Positions 46,571-62,844 of a stretch of DNA of 62,844 nt are shown in pieces. The notes beneath the pieces are model-generated. The model searched no databases, was not told where the DNA came from, and worked only from the letters and a program-made list of their open reading frames with translations. Each line of letters starts with the position of its first letter. Within the stretch, counting starts at the first letter, position 1. Source of the DNA: Bacteroidaceae bacterium. GTDB taxonomy: Bacteria; Bacteroidota; Bacteroidia; Bacteroidales; Bacteroidaceae. The DNA lies in contig JAFXZK010000091.1 of assembly GCA_017541265.1 (NCBI GenBank), positions 1-62,844 of the forward strand, written 5' to 3'. The position numbers and the translations under genes are program-made.

Positions 46571-47437
46571 TCACACTATTATTTCAGCAATATCCTCAGC
46601 AACTTTCTTGATTTGCCAATACGTCTGTGGTGGCAGCTTGTTCATCATAACATCTTCTTTGAACGAAACTGAAGTACCGCGACAAAGTAAGTTGCCGATG
46701 TAGGCGACAAGTTCAAAAAGATTGTGCCCTCGTATGTGGAGATAAGCATTCTGCTCGTTCACATTGAGAGAGTGACAATAATTGCTTTCGGCCTCGAAAT
46801 CAACGGACTTTGCAAACGGAGTATTCAAATGCTTCTTGAAGTTCTTGGCGATTCTCTCAATTAGCAGTTTGCCGTTGTCGGCCAGTTCTACACGTTTGCA
46901 TTGCTTTGGCAAACAGGCAGAGAACATATTCAGATTAAAATCGGGCTTGTCATTCTTGAGGCAGTAGAGCAAAAGCAACATTGGCTTATACACTGTCTTT
47001 GAAAGAGTTGAAAGGAAGGCTGAGAAATCAAAAGTCGTTGCTTTCTCAGGACATTGTGCTTCAAATCGCTCATTCAAAGCAGAGGCTTCGCAATAGTGAT
47101 TCTCCCAAGAATACGTATAGGTTTGACATATGAAGTTGTCAGCATTGAGACCCGTCTCTTGCAACAGATAGCGCATATCACTGTCAATGCAGATGAAGAA
47201 TCGCTTCGACAGGTAAGGACGGTATTTCAGACATTGCTCACAGCCAGAAGTGTCAAATCCTTTGGGACTACGGCTTTGTGTGATGAAGTAATAATGCCCA
47301 GGCTTTCGGTTTTGCAGCACCATATTCCAGAACAATTTATCATCACCATTCTCCAAATGGACGCTGGCTACCACACCACTCTGCATAAGCGGCACATTAG
47401 CAAAGTACCGCGCTTGCTCCAGATAAACGTCTGCCAT
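46571..47437 (-). CDS. DUF4435 protein, AriB-like TOPRIM effector of a PARIS-type defence pair
   Basis: A 288-residue protein. The N-terminal VASVHLENGDDKLFWNMVLQ and the following RFFICIDSDMRYLL give the E...DxD pattern of TOPRIM nucleases as found in DUF4435, the domain of AriB in PARIS, where the released nuclease acts on tRNA. The rest is helical. It overlaps the ATPase stop by one base (TAATG), so the pair is translationally coupled. AT-richer than the glycan block, as expected for a transferred defence gene. Assignment to PARIS rests on the ATPase+DUF4435 pairing; an OLD-like split system is the alternative. Confidence 0.68.
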   Translation of the reverse strand: MADVYLEQARYFANVPLMQSGVVASVHLENGDDKLFWNMVLQNRKPGHYYFITQSRSPKGFDTSGCEQCLKYRPYLSKRFFICIDSDMRYLLQETGLNADNFICQTYTYSWENHYCEASALNERFEAQCPEKATTFDFSAFLSTLSKTVYKPMLLLLYCLKNDKPDFNLNMFSACLPKQCKRVELADNGKLLIERIAKNFKKHLNTPFAKSVDFEAESNYCHSLNVNEQNAYLHIRGHNLFELVAYIGNLLCRGTSVSFKEDVMMNKLPPQTYWQIKKVAEDIAEIIV

Positions 47438-48348
47438 TATTTTCGAGTGTTAGTGGTGATGTTTTCCATATATATAGCCTTGTCCCCCCAACCGTCCGAG
47501 AATATCATCGGCGAATGTGTTGTGAGGATAATCTGCACATTAGGATTCAACTGCAGAATCATGTCAATTAACTTATACTGCCAGCTGATGTGCATGGAAA
47601 TCTCTGGCTCGTCCATCATCAGCACATACTCCTGACCGTCCTCCAACAATACTGTCAATAGAATGATGAGCAGTTGTTTCTCGCCAGAAGATAATTTGTC
47701 AGCATCAATAGCGGTCTTTTCGTCTATGATAAAACGCAGCTTGTCGGAATTGTTGTCTAACACCTTTCCTGTCTCTTTGAAAGCCTCATTAACAAGAATC
47801 TCAAAAAGAATTTTACGAGCATAAATTTTATTATAGTCTTCTTTTGTCACATTTCCTTGAGCACTTAGGTTTTCTGTAAACTTTTTTAAAAGGCCATTCA
47901 GGTAGTAACCATAGTCGCTCTGCAACTGCACAAGCCGTTTGTCAAGCAATGTCTGTTGCGTGTTTACATCCTTATCCTTAATGTCGAAGGTGGAGATAAA
48001 GTCTAACTTCAGACACTTGGCAAATTCTTCCAATGGCAACTCTTTGCCATTTTTCGCAACCTCCCTTGAAGAAAGAGTCAAGGAAACCCTCGCTTTTTCA
48101 TCACTATTCTTTGAATGGGTAGTCGTTGGACTACTAATTACAGTAATGCCATCTTTCAACGAAATAGCAGCACTCTCGTATGTAAATGTAGGCTCTACAC
48201 CATTGAATGCCAAGAATCGAATAAAACCCAATATGGTTGACTTAAACGTACCATTGTTGCCAATAATGATATTCACCTTCTCATCAATCCGAGATTTGAA
48301 GGAGTATTTACCATAGAGATTCTCTATTTCAAAATCTTTAATCCTCAT
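47437..48348 (-). CDS. AAA/ABC-type ATPase, AriA-like partner of DUF4435
   Basis: A 303-residue SMC/ABC-like ATPase: Walker A region NIIIGNNGTFKSTIL (residues 30-38, with Phe where GKS is normally preceded by Gly), signature DKLSSGEKQLLIILLTVLLE, Walker B YVLMMDEPEISMH and switch His LTTHSPMIF. It is shorter than AriA of E. coli PARIS, as I recall it, so the insert between Walker A and the signature is reduced. In such systems the ATPase holds the nuclease until a phage protein triggers it. First gene of a two-gene operon. Confidence 0.7.
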   Translation of the reverse strand: MRIKDFEIENLYGKYSFKSRIDEKVNIIIGNNGTFKSTILGFIRFLAFNGVEPTFTYESAAISLKDGITVISSPTTTHSKNSDEKARVSLTLSSREVAKNGKELPLEEFAKCLKLDFISTFDIKDKDVNTQQTLLDKRLVQLQSDYGYYLNGLLKKFTENLSAQGNVTKEDYNKIYARKILFEILVNEAFKETGKVLDNNSDKLRFIIDEKTAIDADKLSSGEKQLLIILLTVLLEDGQEYVLMMDEPEISMHISWQYKLIDMILQLNPNVQIILTTHSPMIFSDGWGDKAIYMENITTNTRK

Positions 48349-53631: not shown

Positions 53632-55020
53632 ATGGAACTCATCTATCTTTTATATCTCATCATCGGCATCGCCTTGGGAGCGGTTGCTGTGTATTTCGCG
53701 ATGCGGTCGCAGGTGCAGGCGGCAAAGGAAAGGACAAGCCTTGCAGAACAGCAGAAACAGCAGGAAGGAGACTCGCTTCGGCAGCAGATGCGCGAACAGC
53801 AGGAGACATTCCGCCAGCAGATGCAGGCGCAGCAAGAAGCCCAGCAACAGCAGGTGCGTGAGCAACGGGAGTCCCTTCAACAGCAAATGCGTTCGCAGCA
53901 GGAAGCCCAGCAACAGCAGATGGCGCAGCAGATGGCACTCCTGCGCGAACAGATGAGTACCACTTCCGAGCGCGTCCTCAAGGAGCGTGCCGAGGAACTC
54001 TCTGCTGTCAACAGCGAACAGCTCTCGAAGATACTTTCTCCGCTTCAACAGAACCTTCAGCTCATGCGCTCCCAGACGGAGAAGATGCAGAAGGACCACG
54101 ACGACTCCCTGCGCGAACTGAAGGCCGCCATACAGACAAACATGGAGCGCGAACGGGCGATGGGTGAGCAGACGGAACGCTTGGCGCAGGCACTCACGGG
54201 GCAGAACAAGGTGCAGGGCAACTTCGGCGAACTCAAGCTGAGCCAGATACTGGAGCAGATGGAGTTGGAGCGCGGCTTGCAGTACGACACGCAGGAGACG
54301 ATGCGAGACGCTCAAGGCCGTCCCATCACAAGCGAGGAAGGCCGCCGCATGATTCCCGATGCCGTGCTGCACTTCCCCGACGGTCGCGACGTCATCATCG
54401 ACAGCAAGATGTCCTTCACCGCCTTCGTCGATTACATGAACGCCGAGGACGAAGCGACCAGGAACGAGGCCCTTCGCCGCCACCTCGCCAGCATGAGGCA
54501 GCACGTCCGCGAACTGGCACAGAAGCAGTACTTCCGCTATGCCAAGAGCGACAAGGGCCGCCTCGACTTCGTGCTGATGTACGTCTTCCAGGAGAGCGCC
54601 CTGCAACTTGCTTTGCAAAGCGATACGACGCTCTGGAAGGAAGCCTACGACCAAGGCGTCATCATTTCCGGCAGCCAGTCACTCTACATGACCTTGCGCG
54701 TGCTCGAACTCACCTGGAAGCAGACGCGCCAGGTGGAGAACCAGGAGAAGATGATGCAGTGCGCCAACACCCTTGTTGAGCGTGTCCAGCTCTTTGCCGA
54801 ACGCTTCGAGCGCGTCGGCGACCTCCTCGACAAGACCCGCCGCGGGTTCGACGACCTCACCGTCGTCACCGCCCCCTCCGGCCCCAGCATCACCACCGCC
54901 GCCCGCAACCTCCTCAAATTCGGCGCCCAAGAGAACAAAAAGAAGAAATCCCTCAACTCGCCGTCCATGCTCGACAACACAGAAGACAACAACACGCCAG
55001 AGCTGCCTTTGGAAGAGTGA
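53632..55020 (+). CDS. rmuC: RmuC family DNA recombination protein
   Basis: A 462-residue protein: N-terminal membrane anchor (MELIYLLYLIIGIALGAVAV), a long coiled coil (about 25-185) whose first part is an extremely Gln-rich repeat of about 18 residues (QAQQEAQQQQVREQRESLQQ and similar), and the RmuC endonuclease-like core (GNFGELKLSQILEQMELERG, PDAVLHFPDGRDVIIDSKMS, LMYVFQESALQLAL). RmuC limits recombination at inverted repeats. The upstream leader holds repeated TTTTTACC words. A well-conserved housekeeping gene, not part of the defence genes. Confidence 0.92.
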   Translation: MELIYLLYLIIGIALGAVAVYFAMRSQVQAAKERTSLAEQQKQQEGDSLRQQMREQQETFRQQMQAQQEAQQQQVREQRESLQQQMRSQQEAQQQQMAQQMALLREQMSTTSERVLKERAEELSAVNSEQLSKILSPLQQNLQLMRSQTEKMQKDHDDSLRELKAAIQTNMERERAMGEQTERLAQALTGQNKVQGNFGELKLSQILEQMELERGLQYDTQETMRDAQGRPITSEEGRRMIPDAVLHFPDGRDVIIDSKMSFTAFVDYMNAEDEATRNEALRRHLASMRQHVRELAQKQYFRYAKSDKGRLDFVLMYVFQESALQLALQSDTTLWKEAYDQGVIISGSQSLYMTLRVLELTWKQTRQVENQEKMMQCANTLVERVQLFAERFERVGDLLDKTRRGFDDLTVVTAPSGPSITTAARNLLKFGAQENKKKKSLNSPSMLDNTEDNNTPELPLEE

Positions 55021-55307
55021 TGCAAAACAATCTTCCACGTATCATCCGCAGACGTCACACATCTCATTGACAAACTACTCTAAAGTAAATCGCAAACGAC
55101 ACGAGAGAAAAATCGCATATTACTCTTGAATAAATTACAAACTACTCGTGCGTCGATTGGAGACACCCCAATACGGGAAAGCAACAAAAATGAGATTTTC
55201 GGCATTTTCTTATGTTTGAACAGCGAGATTTTCGGCAAAAGCAGGCAACTTTGTGAGATTTTCGGCATTTTCCTTTGTTTGAATAGTGAGGTTTCGGCAA
55301 AAACATG
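55021..55307. repeat. AGATTTTCGGC tandem repeats upstream of the DUF4143 ATPase
   Basis: GAGATTTTCGGCATTTTC with TTTGTTTGAAnAGnGAG recurs two to three times between 55192 and 55305, with a fragment GAGATTTTCGGCAAAAG between, roughly 38 to 78 bases apart. No gene is credible; a TATCTTTG -7 box at 55308-55315 ends the array. Confidence 0.6.
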
Positions 55308-55348
55308 TATCTTTGCCGCAAAGAAATACGAAACCAAACTTTAAGGAA

Positions 55349-56689
55349 ATGGGAGAAAGAATCTTTAAGCGTAAACTGTACGACAAGATGCTTCGATGGA
55401 AGCAGGAACGGCAGGGCAGTACTGCGCTGCTCATCAAGGGAGCCAGACGTGTAGGAAAATCCACGCTTGCTGAGGAATTTGCCAAGCATGAATACGAGTC
55501 GTATCTCCTCATTGACTTTACAGAAACATCCAAGGAAGTAAGGAACTTGTTCGACGACATATCAAACCTTGACGATTTGCTCTTCCAGTTGCAATTCCGT
55601 TTCCAGAAAAGGCTCACGCCCCGAAAGTCTGTCATCATCTTTGATGAAGTGCAGAACTGCCCGATGGCACGGCAGGCAATCAAGAAACTGGTGAAAGACG
55701 GACGCTATGACTATATCGAAACAGGCTCTCTAATCTCCATCAAGAAGCACACACAGGGCATCCGCATCCCAAGCGAGGAAACGCGACTGACACTTTATCC
55801 AATGGACTACGAAGAGTTCAAATGGGCTTTGGGCGATGAGGTCACAATACCGATGTTGCGTGAGGCTTTTGATACCAGACGGCATTTTGGCGATGCCTTG
55901 ACAAGGAAGCTACAGCGCGATTTCAGGCTTTACATGCTGATAGGTGGTATGCCGCAGGCTGTGAGTGCATATCTTGATGCCAATAACCTAAGTGTCGTGG
56001 ATGACGTGAAGAGGGAAATCATAGAACTCTATGCCGATGACTTCCGAAAGATTGACCCGACGGGAAAAGCAACAAGGATGTTCTATGCAATACCCGGACA
56101 ACTTGGCAAGAACGCTTCGAGATACCAGATTTCGAGTGTCATTGAGCAAGGAAGACAAGAACGGCTGGACGAACTGGTACAGGACATGGAGGATTCGCAG
56201 GTCGTGCTTCTGTCTCATCATGCCAACGACCCTAATGTGGGGATGTCGCTGCACGCGGACTCCAACAGATACAAGATGTTCCTGAACGATACAGGACTGT
56301 TCGTCACACTCGCCTTCAGAGACAAAGACATCACAGAGAACGTCATCTACCAAAAACTGCTAACCGACAAGCTGTCGGCAGACCTCGGCTATGTCTATGA
56401 GAACGTTGTGGCACAGATGCTGAAGGCTGCCGGCAATGAACTCTATTATCACACCTGGCCCACGGAAAGCGGCAAGCACAACTACGAGATAGACTTCCTG
56501 CTTTCGCGAGGAAGCAAGATATGTCCGATAGAGGTCAAGTCCTCCGGGTACAAAAGCCATGCCTCGCTCGATGCCTTCTTCAGAAAGTTCCCTGACAGAA
56601 TCTCACACCGCTACCTTGTATATACTAAGGACATGAGAAAAGACGCAGACATACAGATGGTGCCTGTCTTCCTAACAATGTTCCTCTAA
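55349..56689 (+). CDS. AAA_14/DUF4143 ATPase
   Basis: A 446-residue protein starting MGERIFKRKLYDKMLRWKQE. It has Walker A IKGARRVGKST, Walker B SVIIFDEVQNCP, sensor ETGSLISIK and the YPMDYEEFKWAL segment of AAA_14 proteins, then the C-terminal DUF4143 domain with a PD-(D/E)XK-like core (YEIDFLLSRGSKICPIEVKS). These proteins are abundant in gut Bacteroidales, are often laterally transferred, and have no settled function. The promoter lies at 55308; the gene stands alone. Confidence 0.88.
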   Translation: MGERIFKRKLYDKMLRWKQERQGSTALLIKGARRVGKSTLAEEFAKHEYESYLLIDFTETSKEVRNLFDDISNLDDLLFQLQFRFQKRLTPRKSVIIFDEVQNCPMARQAIKKLVKDGRYDYIETGSLISIKKHTQGIRIPSEETRLTLYPMDYEEFKWALGDEVTIPMLREAFDTRRHFGDALTRKLQRDFRLYMLIGGMPQAVSAYLDANNLSVVDDVKREIIELYADDFRKIDPTGKATRMFYAIPGQLGKNASRYQISSVIEQGRQERLDELVQDMEDSQVVLLSHHANDPNVGMSLHADSNRYKMFLNDTGLFVTLAFRDKDITENVIYQKLLTDKLSADLGYVYENVVAQMLKAAGNELYYHTWPTESGKHNYEIDFLLSRGSKICPIEVKSSGYKSHASLDAFFRKFPDRISHRYLVYTKDMRKDADIQMVPVFLTMFL

Positions 56690-57395
56690 CTCTTAAAATA
56701 AAAATTTTGCATTTATCTATTCACCTATTCACTTTTCTGTGTTAAGCCATTGTAGATAAGATGTATAGATAGGTGAATAGATGGATGAAGTCTTCGCTTG
56801 GCTATTCACCTTGCATTGATTGTCCAAAAACACCTTTTTCTGCACCTAACAAAAGCCAGGAAAGGTCTTCAATCAATGGAGTTTGATTCTGTTTCACATG
56901 CTGAAACGATTTGTTTCACATGTGAAACACTTTGTTTCAACGAGTGAAACAGTTTGCTTCAGCATTAACTTTTCATCGTGAACACAGTGTATTTCAATTG
57001 ATAAGCTACGCTGCGAACGCTATCACATCATGTTTTCATCCACAAAAGTGAATAGCTGTATGCAAAAGCGAACTCTCTATTCACCTTGTTACTTTTTGAA
57101 TTTCATAATGTTATTTGCAAAAGTGAATAGGTGAATAGGTAAATCACTAATCTTTCGTAAAGAAAACTTTCATGTTGACATTCGTCGAGTTTTACTTCCG
57201 AAAAAGGTTTTGTTCATTATGTATTCATAAGGATGTCCAACTTTATGCGACAGCAGAGGGGACATTAAAAGAGGGAGAGAATAGGGATTTATGAAGGAGG
57301 CTTTCAAAAAGAGGAAATAATTATTCTTTCCTCTTAAAGGCAATAGATTACTGATATTTTTCCTTCAAAAGCTTTTGATGTATTCCTTTTCTTTG
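56690..57395. other. Long gene-free stretch with 22-base repeats
   Basis: About 700 bases without a gene. Words such as TTCACCTATTCACTTT and GTGAATAGNTGNAT recur on both strands. The region 56890-56955 is listed separately as array 7. The segment is AT-rich and probably the decayed edge of the mobile defence region. Confidence 0.5.
56890..56955. repeat. 22-base-period tandem repeat, array 7
   Basis: Three exact 22-base units (56890, 56912, 56934), each a GTTTCA...TGAAAC palindrome (for example GTTTCACATGTGAAAC). Confidence 0.8.
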
Positions 57396-57403
57396 TACCT
57401 TTG
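57374..57403 (+). promoter_or_regulatory. Promoter of the lost type IIG gene, now in front of the three-gene operon
   Basis: TTTG (57374-57377), 18-base spacer, TACCTTTG (57396-57403), 19 bases before the ATG of the 35-codon remnant. Confidence 0.65.
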
Positions 57404-57421
57404 TAGGCAAATACATCTCCT

Positions 57422-57529
57422 ATGCTATTCCAAAAGGACATCATCAAGAAGCACCTCACCACCCTGCCCGCTGAACAAACAGCTGGTGAGAAAGCGTATG
57501 CCAACGTGCCTGACAAAAAAGTTATGTAA
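57422..57529 (+). pseudogene. N-terminal remnant of a type IIG (Eco57I-like) restriction-modification gene
   Basis: ATG 57422 to TAA encodes MLFQKDIIKKHLTTLPAEQT and ends AYANVPDKKVM. The beginning matches, from memory, the N-terminus of the long Eco57I-like methyltransferase/nuclease fusions of Bacteroidales. The rest, normally about 1,000 residues, is missing, and after 35 codons the sequence runs into the three-gene operon, whose first ATG is 16 bases downstream. So the promoter and leader of one defence gene appear to drive another. Confidence 0.5.
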
Positions 57530-57544
57530 TTAATCTCTATATAT

Positions 57545-58066
57545 ATGATTGAACGTGAAATAAGTGAAAGATATTTTTTTAACTTGCATGACTTTAACGA
57601 AAAAGGACGAAGACGCAAAGATGGACTTTCATTTCGAGATGTTGTGCGCGAATTTGAAAGAGACTTCCACGCACGGCACTCGACGGAGTATGCCTTGAAT
57701 TTCTATGGCAATTCCAAAACAATGAGACTTTTGGAAAAGTCTTGCGATGCTGCACCATTTCTTACATATGGAATGGACTTGACTCAAGGAACGGCTTTTG
57801 ATGCAGAACATGACCCTTATATTAACCACGAAATAGATAAACGCAGTAAGAATATATATGTTTATGGTATAGACTCTGCATTTATGACAGAGTTTGACAA
57901 AGATGGTTACCCCATACTTGATGAAGATGGTGACATTTTTCCACTAACGCTTCTTATAGACAAAACGATGAGAGACAATGAGGTCAGGCTGGCAGTTCCC
58001 ACACTTGACGATGGCGATGAAACAGAGGATGTAACTATAGATGTACCACATTTTGAATATGCATGA
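57545..58066 (+). CDS. Unrecognised 173-residue protein, first gene of candidate defence operon
   Basis: Begins MIEREISERYFFNLHDFNEK. I recognise no family. The N-terminal half is basic and helical (GRRRKDGLSFRDVVREFERD), the middle carries short aromatic strands (YALNFYGNSKTMRLLEK), and the C-terminal half is acidic (FDKDGYPILDEDGDIFPL, TLDDGDETEDVTIDV) with little hydrophobic core, perhaps an interaction or DNA-mimic-like surface. No membrane segment, no signal peptide. Its stop overlaps the next ATG by 4 bases (ATGATG), so the next protein is translated with it. Marked AT-richness compared with the flanks. Confidence 0.6.
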   Translation: MIEREISERYFFNLHDFNEKGRRRKDGLSFRDVVREFERDFHARHSTEYALNFYGNSKTMRLLEKSCDAAPFLTYGMDLTQGTAFDAEHDPYINHEIDKRSKNIYVYGIDSAFMTEFDKDGYPILDEDGDIFPLTLLIDKTMRDNEVRLAVPTLDDGDETEDVTIDVPHFEYA

Positions 58067-59319
58067 TGGAAACAAAGGAAAAGAATAAGCAGTGGCACTT
58101 GATTCGCAATGATAACGGCGAATGGATAAGCGACGAATACGCCGTGCTCCTCACTCCATTGGAGGCAACCATACTAAAAGTATTGGCGGTCAAGCAAAGG
58201 AAAAAACTAAGCATTCAACACGGAGAAGATGGCCTACTTTGGTGCTATAAGCATGAATATGAATCTATTGATATGAGTACTCCTCCGCCCGTTGAACACA
58301 AACTGAAAATAAAGAAAAGCTATCAGTATAGTGACAAAGTTAAAGAGTATCTACAAAAATTAGAACAGGAAATATTAAATGAAAAACAAGACATGAAAGA
58401 CAGAACTGATGATTTCGATATCATAAAGGAGATGTTAAATCAGAAAACTGGTGTTTCTGATTTACCTCAAGACTATAATTACAAATTTGAAAAACAAAAA
58501 AAGACCTTGGTGATAAAGCTTTCGGAAAAGGGTTTGAAGGCTAATATGCAAGATAATGGAAGTGCTTTTGAGAGTTGGGCAATTATATTAAAATTTTATT
58601 TGAGTGATGTTATAACTACTGTCACCATTGATTGGGAGGATTTACACTACGATGATGGGGTTAATCTCCATTTTAACAGATTTGTTTATCGTCTCACAAA
58701 ATTTATTCAAACATATGAATGGGCATCCGCAGCACGCCCCATCCCCCCAATACCTTCTGTACTCGTATGCAACTTCCCCATTGGAGGTGCTGCTAAATAT
58801 GATAAACATAGTGAAGGAAGCGAAGGTTGGATAGAATGCAAGTATGTTGAGAAGTATAGATATGATTATGAAGTAATGGATCATCAATTGCCAGTAGGAA
58901 TATTTTACAATAAGGTAAGTCGTGATACCCATTACACAACGGGACAGAAAAGTGCTATAGACATCTGGGCAATTAGGAATCAAGAACTCTTTATTTTTGA
59001 ACTAAAAAAACCAAACAATAAAGTTTTAGGTGTCATATCAGAGTTGATGTTCTACACAAATATTCTACAAGATATTTTGTCTCACAGGATACAATATCGG
59101 CTTGACACAAAAATGCAAGTTGCAATAGAAAACAATTTTAGAGGGTTTGGTGATTTATATCGGTTATATAAAAGTGGGAATATCCAGAACATTAATGCTA
59201 TCATTCTTTCTCAAAATGTACATCCATTGATTCAATTACCTCTCCTTGACTTTATCAATGATTCTGCTCGCCTAAAATATTGTCGGATTAGATATTCTAT
59301 GCAAAAAGTTGAACTATAA
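58063..59319 (+). CDS. Putative PD-(D/E)XK nuclease, second gene of candidate defence operon
   Basis: A 418-residue cytoplasmic protein with no family I can name. Residues 1-70 form a small alpha/beta domain (QWHLIRNDNGEWISDEYAVL), about 85-130 a coiled coil, about 150-240 mixed. Near the C-terminus AIDIWAIRNQELFIFELKKP places D300 and E313-L-K315 in the D-x(n)-ExK arrangement of PD-(D/E)XK nucleases, followed by a conserved-looking helix (SELMFYTNILQDIL), as in restriction-like and DUF4143-type nucleases. It overlaps the first gene and runs into the beta-CASP gene. A nuclease role is inference. Confidence 0.6.
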   Translation: MMETKEKNKQWHLIRNDNGEWISDEYAVLLTPLEATILKVLAVKQRKKLSIQHGEDGLLWCYKHEYESIDMSTPPPVEHKLKIKKSYQYSDKVKEYLQKLEQEILNEKQDMKDRTDDFDIIKEMLNQKTGVSDLPQDYNYKFEKQKKTLVIKLSEKGLKANMQDNGSAFESWAIILKFYLSDVITTVTIDWEDLHYDDGVNLHFNRFVYRLTKFIQTYEWASAARPIPPIPSVLVCNFPIGGAAKYDKHSEGSEGWIECKYVEKYRYDYEVMDHQLPVGIFYNKVSRDTHYTTGQKSAIDIWAIRNQELFIFELKKPNNKVLGVISELMFYTNILQDILSHRIQYRLDTKMQVAIENNFRGFGDLYRLYKSGNIQNINAIILSQNVHPLIQLPLLDFINDSARLKYCRIRYSMQKVEL

Positions 59320-59329
59320 TCTAAAGCAC

Positions 59330-60598
59330 ATGAAGATTACCATTCATCGCGGAGCCAATCAGATTGGAGGCTGTATTACGGAAATTGCCACCGATGGAGC
59401 AAAGGTCTTTATCGACTTCGGCTGCAATCTGCCTGGTTCAAAGAAGGAAGAACTAACAGCCAAGGAGGTGGATGAAATAGCTGGAGATGCTGATGCCATT
59501 TTCTACTCTCATTATCATGGCGACCATGTCGGGCTGCACCACCTTATCCCCGAACATACAGCCCAATACATGGGGGCTGGGGCTATTGATGTCATGCGCT
59601 GCAAGTACGAAACATTGAATGCTCATCAGGATTTCAGCCAGCAGTTGACAGCCATTAAAAGAATGATTCCCTTCAAAGAACGAGAGCGCATTGCCGTAAA
59701 GAACAACATCTTTGTCACTCCCTTCTTTGTCAGTCATTCCGCTTTTGATGCCTATATGTTTCTGATTGAGTGCGAAGGCAAGAGGATTCTTCATACTGGT
59801 GATTTCCGTCGTCACGGGTATCTCGGCAAGGGGCTGTTCCCTACATTGGAAAAATTCATAGGCAAGGTTGACATACTCATCACAGAGGGAACAATGCTTG
59901 GACGGAGCCAAGAACAAGTAGTCACAGAGCATCAGATACAACTAAACACTATTCAAGCCATCAGTGAGCGTAAACATAAACATAAATACGTTTTTGCCCT
60001 CTGTTCCTCTACGGATATTGACCGTCTTGCCTCTTTCCACGCAGCATGCAAAAAGACAGGAAGGCTTTTCCTCGTGGATGCCTATCAACGCCGCGTGCTT
60101 GATGTGTTCTCGGAATATAGCGGTAGCAAAAGTTCACTTTATAAATTTGACAATGTCTTTGAATTGCGTGACCATAAATCTTATCGGATAGAAAAGATAA
60201 CCAATTATCTTCGGGACAAAGGTTTCTTGATGCCTGTGCGGATGAATAGTCTGTGGCTAATAGAGGATATGGTGCAGGTCTTCAATGATGAAGCGCCGTG
60301 GCTACTGTATTCCATGTGGAACGGTTATGCAGAAGAGGGTGGAGAAAATGCCAACGAGAATGTTATCGCTATCCGTCGCCTCTTTGAAAACCACATCCTC
60401 GATGGTGTAGAAAAAGGCTTCCATACAAGCGGTCATGCAGATATTGCAACTCTTCGTGAAGTTTGCCAGGCAGTAAGCCCGTCAATTGGTGTGATACCTA
60501 TTCACAAAGATGTTGGGATGAAATACGAATCACAAACCCATCGGGTGTTTAACGAAGGAATCTTTACAATATCAGGAATTGAAATAGATGTCCATTAA
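59330..60598 (+). CDS. Beta-CASP metallo-beta-lactamase-fold nuclease (RNase J-like), third gene of operon
   Basis: A 422-residue protein starting MKITIHRGANQIGGCITEIA. Metal motif H61-Y-H63-G-D65-H66 in FYSHYHGDHVGLHH, third ligand region FFVSHSAFDAYMFLIE, HTGDFRRHG and the beta-CASP closing motif HTSGHADIATLREV followed by IGVIPIHKD, as in RNase J and CPSF-73-type RNases. It lacks the C-terminal dimerisation domain of RNase J, so it is a short version. The frame extends to 59309 (MNYNLKHM), overlapping the previous gene. In this operon it is probably an RNA- or DNA-degrading partner of the PD-(D/E)XK-like protein. Confidence 0.78.
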   Translation: MKITIHRGANQIGGCITEIATDGAKVFIDFGCNLPGSKKEELTAKEVDEIAGDADAIFYSHYHGDHVGLHHLIPEHTAQYMGAGAIDVMRCKYETLNAHQDFSQQLTAIKRMIPFKERERIAVKNNIFVTPFFVSHSAFDAYMFLIECEGKRILHTGDFRRHGYLGKGLFPTLEKFIGKVDILITEGTMLGRSQEQVVTEHQIQLNTIQAISERKHKHKYVFALCSSTDIDRLASFHAACKKTGRLFLVDAYQRRVLDVFSEYSGSKSSLYKFDNVFELRDHKSYRIEKITNYLRDKGFLMPVRMNSLWLIEDMVQVFNDEAPWLLYSMWNGYAEEGGENANENVIAIRRLFENHILDGVEKGFHTSGHADIATLREVCQAVSPSIGVIPIHKDVGMKYESQTHRVFNEGIFTISGIEIDVH

Positions 60599-60683
60599 AA
60601 TAAGGTGGCAGACATTCTAAGGTAACATGTTTCATAATAATGTAAAGAAAAGTAATAGCAACAGCCACAAGACTATACAATTT

Positions 60684-60791
60684 ATGAAAAACAATAAAGG
60701 ACAAATCTATTATATCAGACTACCGATGGTGAGTCGCACATTGAAGTCGTTGCAAATTTGCAACAATCAGTCGATGCCACGTCATAAATGA
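60684..60791 (+). pseudogene. Decayed 5' fragment of a second rhuM copy
   Basis: From 60684 the DNA follows the start of the intact rhuM at 60831 (ATAAAGGACAAAT, CTATTATATCAGACT, GAGTCGCACATTGA), with a one-base deletion that destroys the frame. It then jumps to a TTGCAAATTTGCAACAA segment like that near 61026, so an internal piece is missing. Only about 100 bases remain. Confidence 0.65.
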
Positions 60792-60804
60792 TAAATAAAA
60801 GTCG

Positions 60805-60842
60805 TACCTTTGCAAACGAAACATGATGATATGGCAAACGAT
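60805..60842 (+). repeat. 34-base direct repeat, left copy (promoter and start of rhuM)
   Basis: CTTTGCAAACGAAACATGAT followed by GATATGGCAAACGA (60809-60842) is identical at 61864-61897, where it starts the DUF1016 gene. It covers part of the -7 box (TACCTTTG 60805-60812), the leader and the first codons. Confidence 0.85.
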
Positions 60843-61853
60843 AAAGGACAAATACTATTATATCAGACTCCAGATGGAGAGTCACGCATTGAGGTGAGGC
60901 TGCAGGATGAGACCGTGTGGCTGAGCCTTGACCAAATGGCAGAGCTGTTTCAGCGCAACAAATCCACCATCTCCCGACACATCAAGAATGTGTTTGAGGA
61001 GGGAGAACTGCAGAAAGAAGCGACAGTTGCAAATTTTGCAACTGTCGTAAATAGAGGAATAAGAGGCGAGGTGGAAGACAGAATCGTTTTCTACAACCTT
61101 GACATGATTATCAGCGTCGGTTATCGCGTGCATTCCTATCGAGGTGTGCAGTTCCGCATGTGGGCGACAAGAGTGCTGAAGGAATACATCGTGAAAGGCT
61201 TTGCTCTGAACGACGACCTGCTGAAACGCGCTGGCGGTGGCAATTACTTCAACGAGTTGTTAGCCCGCATCCGTGACATACGTTCTTCAGAAAAGGTGTT
61301 CTACAGGAAGGTGCTCGAAATCTACGCCCTCAGCATCGACTATGACCCTCGCGTAGAAATGACACAGGAGTTCTTCAAGACGGTGCAGAACAAGATGCAC
61401 TATTCCGTGCATGGGCATACAGCGGCTGAGATTATCTACGAAAGGGCTGATGCACAGAAGGACTTCATGGGGCTGACCACCTGGACAGGCGCGATGCCCA
61501 AGAGAACTGACGCGGAGATAGCGAAGAACTATCTGTCGCAGGAAGAGGTTACGACGCTTAATCGTATCGTCAGCCTGTATCTCGATTTCGCCGAATTACA
61601 GGCGGAGGAGCATCGCCCGATGTATATGAAGGATTGGATTGCCATCCTTGATGACTTCCTGCTCATCTCTCGAAAAGACATCTTGACCCATGCAGGACGT
61701 GTCTCTGCACAATTGGCAAAAGCGAAAGCAGATGCAGAGTACGACAAGTTCAAAGAAAGGACAAAGAATGAACTGTCGGCTGTCGAAATTCACTTTCTTG
61801 AGCAGTTTGAAAGGGAGCAGAAGAAACTGACTGAGAAAAAGGACAAAAGATAA
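60831..61853 (+). CDS. RhuM family protein
   Basis: A 340-residue protein starting MANDKGQILLYQTPDGESRI. The N-terminal half has a helix-turn-helix-like region (VWLSLDQMAELFQRNKSTIS, HIKNVFEEGEL) and the family blocks GIRGEVEDRIVFYNLDMIIS, VGYRVHSYRGVQFRMWATRV and FALNDDLLKRAGGG. A C-terminal Fic/Doc-like region (HYSVHGHTAAEIIYERADAQ, KDFMGLTTWTG) follows. RhuM (named from Salmonella virulence) is common in restriction-modification and defence loci; its reaction is not settled. It sits between a decayed copy of itself and the DUF1016 nuclease and shares their promoter-start sequence. Confidence 0.88.
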   Translation: MANDKGQILLYQTPDGESRIEVRLQDETVWLSLDQMAELFQRNKSTISRHIKNVFEEGELQKEATVANFATVVNRGIRGEVEDRIVFYNLDMIISVGYRVHSYRGVQFRMWATRVLKEYIVKGFALNDDLLKRAGGGNYFNELLARIRDIRSSEKVFYRKVLEIYALSIDYDPRVEMTQEFFKTVQNKMHYSVHGHTAAEIIYERADAQKDFMGLTTWTGAMPKRTDAEIAKNYLSQEEVTTLNRIVSLYLDFAELQAEEHRPMYMKDWIAILDDFLLISRKDILTHAGRVSAQLAKAKADAEYDKFKERTKNELSAVEIHFLEQFEREQKKLTEKKDKR

Positions 61854-61863
61854 TAGTTGTATC

Positions 61864-61897
61864 TTTGCAAACGAAACATGATGATATGGCAAACGAA
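61864..61897 (+). repeat. 34-base direct repeat, right copy (promoter and start of DUF1016)
   Basis: Identical to 60809-60842. The -7 box TATCTTTG is at 61860-61867. Confidence 0.85.
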
Positions 61898-62844
61898 ATA
61901 GAGAAAACATCTGCTGCATCGACGCAGACATTGATAAAGGATTTGCGTCAGATAATCAATCAGGCACGTTGTCGCGTCGCCTCAACAGCCAATGCAGAAC
62001 TCACCATGATGTATTGGCATATAGGCGAACGCATCAACCGTGAAGTTCTTGGCAATCAACGCGCCGAATACGGCAAGCAAATTGTCGCATCAGTGGCGCG
62101 ACAATTGCAAGAAGACTTTGGAACGAAGGGATTTGAAAAGAGTTCCATCACAAGAATGATGAAATTCGCAATGCTTTTTCCAGATGAACAAATTGTTGCG
62201 CGGGCGGCGCAACAATTATCTTGGTCGCATTTTGTAGAGGTTCTACCCCTTAAAGATGACCTTCAACGAGTGTTTTATATCACTATGGCTGCATCCGAAA
62301 GATGGAGCCGCGACCATCTTCGCAAGGAGATTGACGGGATGCTTTTTGAGCGGACTGCAATTGCCAACAAGCCCGACGAACTCATCAAGAAAGAGCTTTC
62401 AACCCTGCGGGACGACAATGTGCTCTCGCCCGACTTGGTTTTCAAAAGTCCCTACTTCTTGGAGTTCACAGGTCTTAAAGGGATGTATAGCGAGAGGACA
62501 TTGGAGGATAGTCTTGTGGCGCATTTAGAACAGTTCATCGTCGAGTTGGGCAATGGCTTCACATTTGTTGCACGACAGAAGCGGATGATTATCGATGGCG
62601 AAGACTTCTATCTTGATTTGCTTTTCTATCATCGCCGGCTGCATCGTCTGATTGCCATTGACCTCAAGCTTGGTCGCTTCAAAGCACAGTACAAAGGTCA
62701 GATGGAACTTTATCTTCGCTGGTTAGAGCAAAACGAGATGGAGCCTGGCGAAGAGTCGCCCTTGGGCTTGTTGCTTTGCACAGAGGGAGGAGAAGAACAG
62801 ATAGAATTGCTGCAACTCGACAAGGCTGGCATCAAAGTCGCCCA
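61886..62844 (+). CDS. DUF1016 (YhcG-like) PDDEXK nuclease family protein, 3' end outside window
   Basis: From ATG 61886 about 319 residues are visible and the frame is open to the end: MANEIEKTSAASTQTLIKDL, an N-terminal helical domain (AELTMMYWHIGERINREVLG), SSITRMMKFAMLFPDEQIVA, SWSHFVEVLPLKDDLQRVFY, then the nuclease core FYLDLLFYHRRLHRLIAIDL-K with LGRFKAQYKGQMELYLRWLE (D...D-x-K). Full family length is about 340-360, so only the last few dozen residues are missing. The two repeated CGCGACAATT/GCGGCGCAACAATT words in its 5' half make two near-identical VARQLQ/ARAAQQL stretches. It forms a small operon-like set with rhuM. Confidence 0.9.
   Translation, partial: MANEIEKTSAASTQTLIKDLRQIINQARCRVASTANAELTMMYWHIGERINREVLGNQRAEYGKQIVASVARQLQEDFGTKGFEKSSITRMMKFAMLFPDEQIVARAAQQLSWSHFVEVLPLKDDLQRVFYITMAASERWSRDHLRKEIDGMLFERTAIANKPDELIKKELSTLRDDNVLSPDLVFKSPYFLEFTGLKGMYSERTLEDSLVAHLEQFIVELGNGFTFVARQKRMIIDGEDFYLDLLFYHRRLHRLIAIDLKLGRFKAQYKGQMELYLRWLEQNEMEPGEESPLGLLLCTEGGEEQIELLQLDKAGIKVA

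Follow-up and report, generated by a model that had tools for sequence, protein, structure and literature searches.

A constant RNase J-like beta-CASP protein and its exchangeable PD-(D/E)XK-type partners: a possible anti-invader module in Bacteroidaceae and beyond

What is conserved in a compact three-gene operon near the end of a Bacteroidaceae contig, and what might it do for the cell that carries it? The operon lies in contig JAFXZK010000091.1 of GenBank assembly GCA_017541265.1, and the whole stretch of 62,844 nucleotides (nt) that was analyzed is hereafter called the window (contig C11; the assembly totals 3.24 Mb at 87% completeness). We named the genes A, B, and C in transcription order, and BN denotes the N-terminal ~85 residues of B. 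An earlier note on this DNA had proposed a two-nuclease operon with an acidic first protein; two nuclease-type superfamilies and a separable acidic A were indeed found here, but it is the pair of B and C, and not the trio, that is conserved as a unit. In this pair C is kept and whole PD-(D/E)XK-type genes are exchanged ahead of it. The features of the operon are as follows.

57396-57403 (+): TACCTTTG box, read from the sequence; may be the operon's promoter element of the Bacteroidetes -7 type
57422-57529 (+): 35-aa open reading frame 5' of A, probably an unrelated remnant
57545-58066 (+): gene A, encoding an acidic protein of 173 aa; an optional accessory found together with BN
58063-58317 (+): BN, first ~85 residues of B; elsewhere a free-standing gene or a tail remnant
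58063-59319 (+): gene B, 418 aa, with C-terminal ~300 residues of PD-(D/E)XK type; the interchangeable partner
58960-59007 (+): codons of the putative PD-(D/E)XK core, D300 ... E313-x-K315, within gene B
59330-60598 (+): gene C, putative 422-aa RNase J-like beta-CASP metallo-nuclease; the constant partner

A, B, and C were read in the window as three head-to-tail open reading frames (ORFs) on the same strand, with a 4-nt overlap (ATGA) between A and B as the earlier note had described, while the gap between B and C measured 10 nt rather than the 11 given there. Position 57396, previously taken as the operon start, is a promoter-like box and not a gene start, as the first gene begins at 57545; we presume that this box resembles the Bacteroidetes -7 element. 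The length of C is counted from its ATG, and an alternative TTG at 59309 is also open. The AT-richness reported before was confirmed, with GC contents of 0.389 (A), 0.350 (B), and 0.445 (C) vs 0.52 for the whole window. Locus L003 has the same trio and 157 nt more, 92% identical in DNA, beside another left neighbor; it comes from a Prevotellaceae genome, the sole relative found in the named genome collection. The 35-aa ORF was rejected as a conserved leader, since homology to L003 starts only 3 nt before the ATG of A.

The pairing of B with C was followed across loci, for which stretches around C, A, and B matches were taken and ORFs were called by a simple longest-ORF procedure (which missed A and BN in L112, where a profile search recovered both). 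Though the 52 loci with a C longer than 330 aa are not independent (L057 and L058 have identical C proteins, and the window and L003 are close), 46 of them had a gene of PD-(D/E)XK type no more than three genes from C, and at 41 this neighbor belonged to one of six PD-(D/E)XK-type clusters. Partners were typed by script at 39 loci (34 directly upstream, 3 second, and 2 third) and by reading at L005 and L006, where the partner is downstream of C, and five more loci carried the motif on reading (L007, L079, L096, L097, L120). Nearly all direct upstream neighbors (33/34) lay within 20 nt of C, and 22 of the 34 overlapped it. The six misses were L074, L084, and L090 (contig ends with only 219-329 bases upstream), L085 (a WYL gene upstream), L098 (a degenerate motif), and L004. 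In further plasmid loci the partner adjoined C in five of six cases (Cereibacter, two Sphingomonas, Cupriavidus, and Thermococcus barophilus), and no partner was found beside C at the Rhizobium leguminosarum plasmid locus (L139). On the T. barophilus plasmid pTBMP1 (L144), NYN-domain, "type I restriction endonuclease," and "ribonuclease J" genes are annotated in a row, possibly an archaeal version of the B-C pair. The module was thus found in Bacteroidota, Pseudomonadota, and Bacillota and on an archaeal plasmid, and its recurrence at dozens of loci, together with that of the trio in L003, shows the arrangement to be more than a coincidence. The idea that the trio is a single conserved system, which the earlier note had proposed to test by a survey, was rejected, as A is rare (4/201 genomes of the family vs 38/201 for C at 1e-15, own genome included in both) and A and BN are separable from the pair.

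How far is B exchanged while C stays? The tree of the 52 C proteins was a quick one with long branches flagged, and we therefore put weight on close pairs only. C was at least 60% identical in 47 locus pairs, drawn from 41 loci and not independent, and in 31 of these the B proteins lacked a BLAST match at 1e-3. In two close pairs, DNA homology ends 23-48 nt before B and resumes exactly at the ATG of C. The C proteins of the first pair, L076/L078 (same genus code, incomplete assemblies), are 98% identical. Here the replaced segment extends from 33-48 nt before the B start up to the ATG of C, whose first base already matches again; identity is 98-99% over C and the 1.1 kb that follow and 92% over the 446 nt before the swap, with a flank that is not fully constant further upstream (a difference of about 1.3 kb vs 0.2 kb). 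In the second, L064/L065 (C 93% identical), different B types stand between a common 68-nt block (97%) and the ATG of C, and the two loci share little outside this block and C. The 40-nt core of the block is an imperfect inverted repeat with arms AACGGCAT/ATGCCGTT, which precedes three different B types with 0-1 mismatches (L064:5707-5746 (-), L065:7182-7221, and L072:7045-7084, the last with one mismatch and the third B type) and is possibly an operator or a recombination anchor. Type I HsdS restriction and polymorphic toxins likewise keep a conserved part and exchange a recognition or toxin part; here, in contrast, the part exchanged is an entire neighboring ORF of nuclease type, bounded by a shared element upstream and by C's start codon. 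The natural swap in L076/L078 makes the role of B testable from existing alleles, to which L064, L065, and L072 add three more on related C genes, and even if the module has no immune role, the literature searched offered no description of such evolutionary behavior, in which a nuclease-type gene is exchanged at a fixed slot next to a conserved nuclease.

In both pairs the replaced segment contains B alone, so C can probably do without a contact specific to B, and B is not accompanied by an immunity gene of its own. This bears on a toxin-antitoxin-like arrangement, in which B would be a DNase toxin, C an RNase limiting B mRNA, and A-BN a second layer of control. Such a reading would suit a small, mobile, closely coupled pair with an acidic, inhibitor-like A, but specific antitoxins travel with their toxins, whereas here C stays behind, and there are B proteins with no C in the stretch read (L093 and L094; L113 has another PD-(D/E)XK type); we regard it as improbable.

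What kind of protein occupies the exchanged position? Its conserved residues point to a PD-(D/E)XK-type protein and candidate nuclease. The window's B carries E254, D300, E313, and K315, including the D300...E313-x-K315 ending that had been pointed out before, and E254, D300, and E313 are kept in all eight rows of a B alignment (A2), with K315 replaced by R in one row. The same four columns are 94-100% conserved in a 49-protein alignment (A6; mean identity 10%) of C neighbors and B relatives; since A6 includes rows in which no motif was seen on reading, the alignment itself accounts for part of its 100% columns, and random sets served as the control. Under the control's settings the four columns were 90-96% conserved, vs a maximum of 71% across all columns of six random 49-protein alignments. 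A6 also includes three proteins not beside C (L113, L093, and L094). The D..ExK pattern, shaped after some B proteins had been seen, occurred in 33 of 42 upstream neighbors of C of at least 200 aa vs 19 of 294 other ORFs. The nine neighbors without it were four members of cluster cl2, L007 (a variant), L085 (WYL), L087 (a wrong neighbor, probably the source of a TatC match), L095 (whose second upstream gene has the pattern), and L098 (degenerate). Curated PD-(D/E)XK families were matched only in L113 (PDDEXK_13) and L093 (REase-ARP), and hhalign relates cl6 to cl2 (99%) and cl2 to cl29 (94%). At L093:5799-7727 (-), a B-type domain shares one protein with another domain of PD-(D/E)XK type (REase-ARP, E 2e-36), and the stretch read there lacks C.

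C, in turn, is a predicted RNase J-like beta-CASP metallo-nuclease without the RNase J C-terminal domain. The motifs named in the earlier note were placed at residues 61-66 (HYHGDH), 156-160 (TGDFR), and 367-370 (SGHA), and the absence of the C-terminal domain also held, as the protein ends 30 aa past motif C. The metallo-beta-lactamase (MBL) metal motifs (HxHxDH, H, D, and a final H) are present and align to structures 7pcr and 2az4, and H61, H63, D65, H66, H136, D158, E186, H369, and H392 are invariant in all 31 rows of an alignment of homologues from Bacteroidota, Alphaproteobacteria, and Bacillota (three phyla). Among these, H392 is the histidine of beta-CASP motif C, a mark of RNA-acting beta-CASP enzymes. 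Against PDB, the profile of this alignment matched EF2904 (2az4, 429 aa, "hypothetical protein") at 2e-34, RNase J structures at 5e-30, and the type VII CRISPR Cas14 structure 8yhd at 1e-16, while the window's C, searched as a single sequence, had no match at 1e-5. Of the profile searches that had been suggested for all three proteins, those for B yielded nothing and those for A chance-level matches only. Four C homologues (L037, L066, L074, L077) bear a C-terminal extension of roughly 220 aa.

Homology to RNase J raises the question of whether C belongs to a housekeeping RNA-processing cluster. Across the catalytic region, C shares with RNase J (7pcr, 3zq4) and EF2904 the MBL core, HxHxDH, GD, SGHA, and P-h-H; it differs from RNase J in lacking the C-terminal domain, in scoring far under the NCBIfam RNase J cut-off (40.8 vs 400 bits), in being coupled to PD-(D/E)XK-type genes, and in being accessory rather than universal. 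Apart from the minority of family genomes given above (38/201), C occurred in 3 of 296 genomes of the phylum at the stricter 1e-40, in 11 plasmid records at 1e-10, and at 5 IMG/VR loci, and in none of 50,697 phage records; viral-contig scans with the A and B profiles found no relative. C is thus an accessory gene, and a housekeeping role for the cluster, which the earlier note had named as an outcome that would overturn its reading, appears very improbable indeed.

Alternatively, C could be a constant trigger or sensor of phage or damaged RNA, and B a swappable killing effector, a DNase that breaks down the DNA of the cell or of the phage, following the logic of CBASS, Lamassu, and Avs. A conserved C beside a variable B, exchanged at single-ORF resolution, fits such a constant-sensor, variable-effector pattern. 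However, the typed B subfamilies keep the PD-(D/E)XK signature (with the K missing from a few rows), and a change of fold is usual among exchanged effectors; C, judged by its complete set of motifs, looks like a catalytically intact nuclease rather than a sensor. We therefore consider this division of labor unlikely.

The reading that we prefer, tentatively and with more doubt than confidence, is that of a mobile two-nuclease module aimed at invading nucleic acid, in which B would set the target and cut and C would degrade the product. Because the B gene is exchanged wholesale, B, as a PD-(D/E)XK-type nuclease, probably decides what is recognized and makes the first cut. C would be the constant, RNA-active beta-CASP nuclease (a 5' exonuclease/endonuclease by analogy with RNase J) and would act on the B-cut product or on RNA and not on B, which would explain why near-identical C proteins stand beside unrelated B proteins. 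A and BN may form an optional adaptor or brake on B, and WYL regulators at some loci may keep the module off until needed. This could amount to a new kind of anti-invader module, a proposal that we make with some reserve, in which a constant RNase J-type nuclease follows a slot for whole PD-(D/E)XK genes and a changeable first-cut specificity feeds one shared degradation step.

Several results weigh against this reading. No Pfam nuclease family was matched by the window's B, and hhalign comparisons of its subfamily with the other subfamilies were weak (best E about 1e-3). On the C tree, the six partner types change 20 times over 41 typed loci (minimum possible 5) vs a shuffled mean of 23.5, with 20 or fewer in 5 of 200 shuffles and hence some clustering, and cl6 in particular changes 5 times vs a shuffled mean of 9.8, with none of 500 shuffles as low; partner type is partly clustered, yet there is much exchange. 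A Pfam scan of A, B, C, and seven window neighbors found no methylase or other self-marking gene. In addition, the enrichment of defense genes next to the module that the earlier note had proposed to look for was not seen, as fewer PADLOC models were matched beside C than among controls (17 models for 104 neighbors vs 53 for 105 controls at 1e-15). These figures count models, not proteins (for the neighbors ~9 proteins if models of the same name share one, 20 at most), and the control ORFs come from bases 3001-20000 of contig C1 in the same 18 genomes and so are not random places; of 20 genomes chosen for this, two dropped out because the contig was too short. Three of 107 neighbor ORFs (L054:12553-18000, L068:12481-17001, L077:3-2498) and three of 108 control ORFs (L133:4393-7944, L134:16289-16999, L135:3-470) were excluded from the scan.

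Is the module, then, for defense at all? It might instead serve a mobile element or competition between strains, or DNA/RNA repair on plasmids and at hot spots, and the missing PADLOC enrichment and the Tn7/Tn3-like, IS21, RmuC, and sigma-70-like genes that adjoin the loci are in keeping with this. Patchy spread, WYL genes at some loci (within four genes of C in 10/52), and repeated B exchange nevertheless suggest an arms race, and some plasmid loci of C lie next to restriction genes of the Eco57I type or McrBC. We think a function outside defense doubtful, and defense of some kind rather probable, for which the presence on plasmids and the make-up as a pair of nuclease-type proteins also speak. 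WYL genes as a class are tied to phage defense, and one family of them, the BrxR regulators, co-localizes with defense systems (PMC9122601).

If immune, the module would be a defense system missing from PADLOC, with a specificity changeable by replacing one gene. PADLOC v2 matched none of A, B, and C (for C, no hit at E up to 1), and the 49 B-type proteins gave isolated single-member hits only (best 4e-5). A had no Pfam or NCBIfam match either, B none above cut-off, and C was recognized as an MBL protein with weak RNase J similarity. The literature searched, mostly outside subscription journals and in part as excerpts, contained no description of a beta-CASP and PD-(D/E)XK pair, in line with the earlier note, which knew of no defense system of this composition; the module is widespread and seemingly undescribed. 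The nearest idea in that literature is the pairing of an MBL pro-nuclease with a protease (Avs1a, HamM, Lamassu, DRT, canu), where a ComEC-like MBL nuclease is activated by the protease (PMC12799240). Like those pairs, the present module is small and sets an MBL-fold nuclease-type protein beside another enzyme type with varied partners; unlike them, its MBL protein is of beta-CASP type, its partner is of PD-(D/E)XK type, and PADLOC has no match. No trypsin-like or caspase protease was found by Pfam among the seven window neighbors. Cas14 of type VII CRISPR is also an MBL-beta-CASP protein, but C scored 19.6 bits against the NCBIfam Cas14 cut-off of 800. Of two further reports, in their excerpted text, the only one to contain both "beta-CASP" and "anti-phage" concerns TIR proteins and mentions a beta-CASP protein only as a fold match (PMC13142454), and the one on CoCoNuTs mentions the MBL fold only in a legend (PMC11090510).

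The first gene of the window's operon behaves differently from the pair. A (pI 4.6, net charge -17) and BN are an optional add-on that travels together with different nuclease domains, since a close A homologue and BN occurred together in all eight loci (window, L003, L057, L058, L061, L111, L112, L113). The window and L003 have BN fused to a cl4-type nuclease domain, and the domain fused to it in L057, L058, and L061 is of cl6 type (the L061 ORF is split); BN is a free gene in two copies before a separate cl2-type nuclease in L111, free-standing after C and A in L112, and free-standing before the PDDEXK_13 protein in L113, where the stretch read has no C. The window and L111 show 77% identity in A and likewise in C, and their nuclease domains have no BLAST match. 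A BN tail remnant precedes a second cl2-type gene in L081 (E 6e-4), and weak remnants, which rest mainly on position and reading (E about 0.3), occur just before B in L078 and at the B start in L059. More remote A-like proteins occur singly in unrelated surroundings (L114-L117), and a 724-aa A-like hit (L118) was rejected as a fusion, being a type I restriction M subunit by reading with a weak score.

The trio had also been described as sitting in a row of defense genes, which holds in part. A PARIS-type AriA/AriB pair lies at 46571-48348 (-) (PADLOC E 2e-57 and 1e-105), and the PADLOC candidate families PDC-S01 (55286-56689) and PDC-S05/RhuM (60810-61853) and a RES-domain gene are near the trio, but the row is interrupted, as between PARIS and the trio there are one gene that we take from its sequence to be RmuC-like and one that we take to be transporter-like. 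Window positions 53632-62842 and L003 share a slot after the RmuC-like gene (named by reading), whose contents (the trio, RhuM, a DUF1016-like gene by reading, and AAA/DUF4143 genes) are ordered differently in the two, and an annotated rmuC gene is near C in Sphingomonas L141 as well.

Two further kinds of gene recur near C. In 11 of 52 loci, a metallophosphatase gene of ~190 aa is no more than four genes away from C, and in most of them it comes right behind C (L004, L064, L076, L078, L080, L081, L083, L086, L088, L089, L091), and in Cereibacter L140 an annotated metallophosphoesterase overlaps the end of C. Small proteins resembling parts of the palm of DNA polymerase III alpha are found near several C modules (PF07733, E=3e-6 for one), with a 167-aa type in 9 of 52 loci, e.g., L054:9606-10109 (-), and a second type, by reading, at L068:6089-6982 (+) and L079:184-1044 (+).

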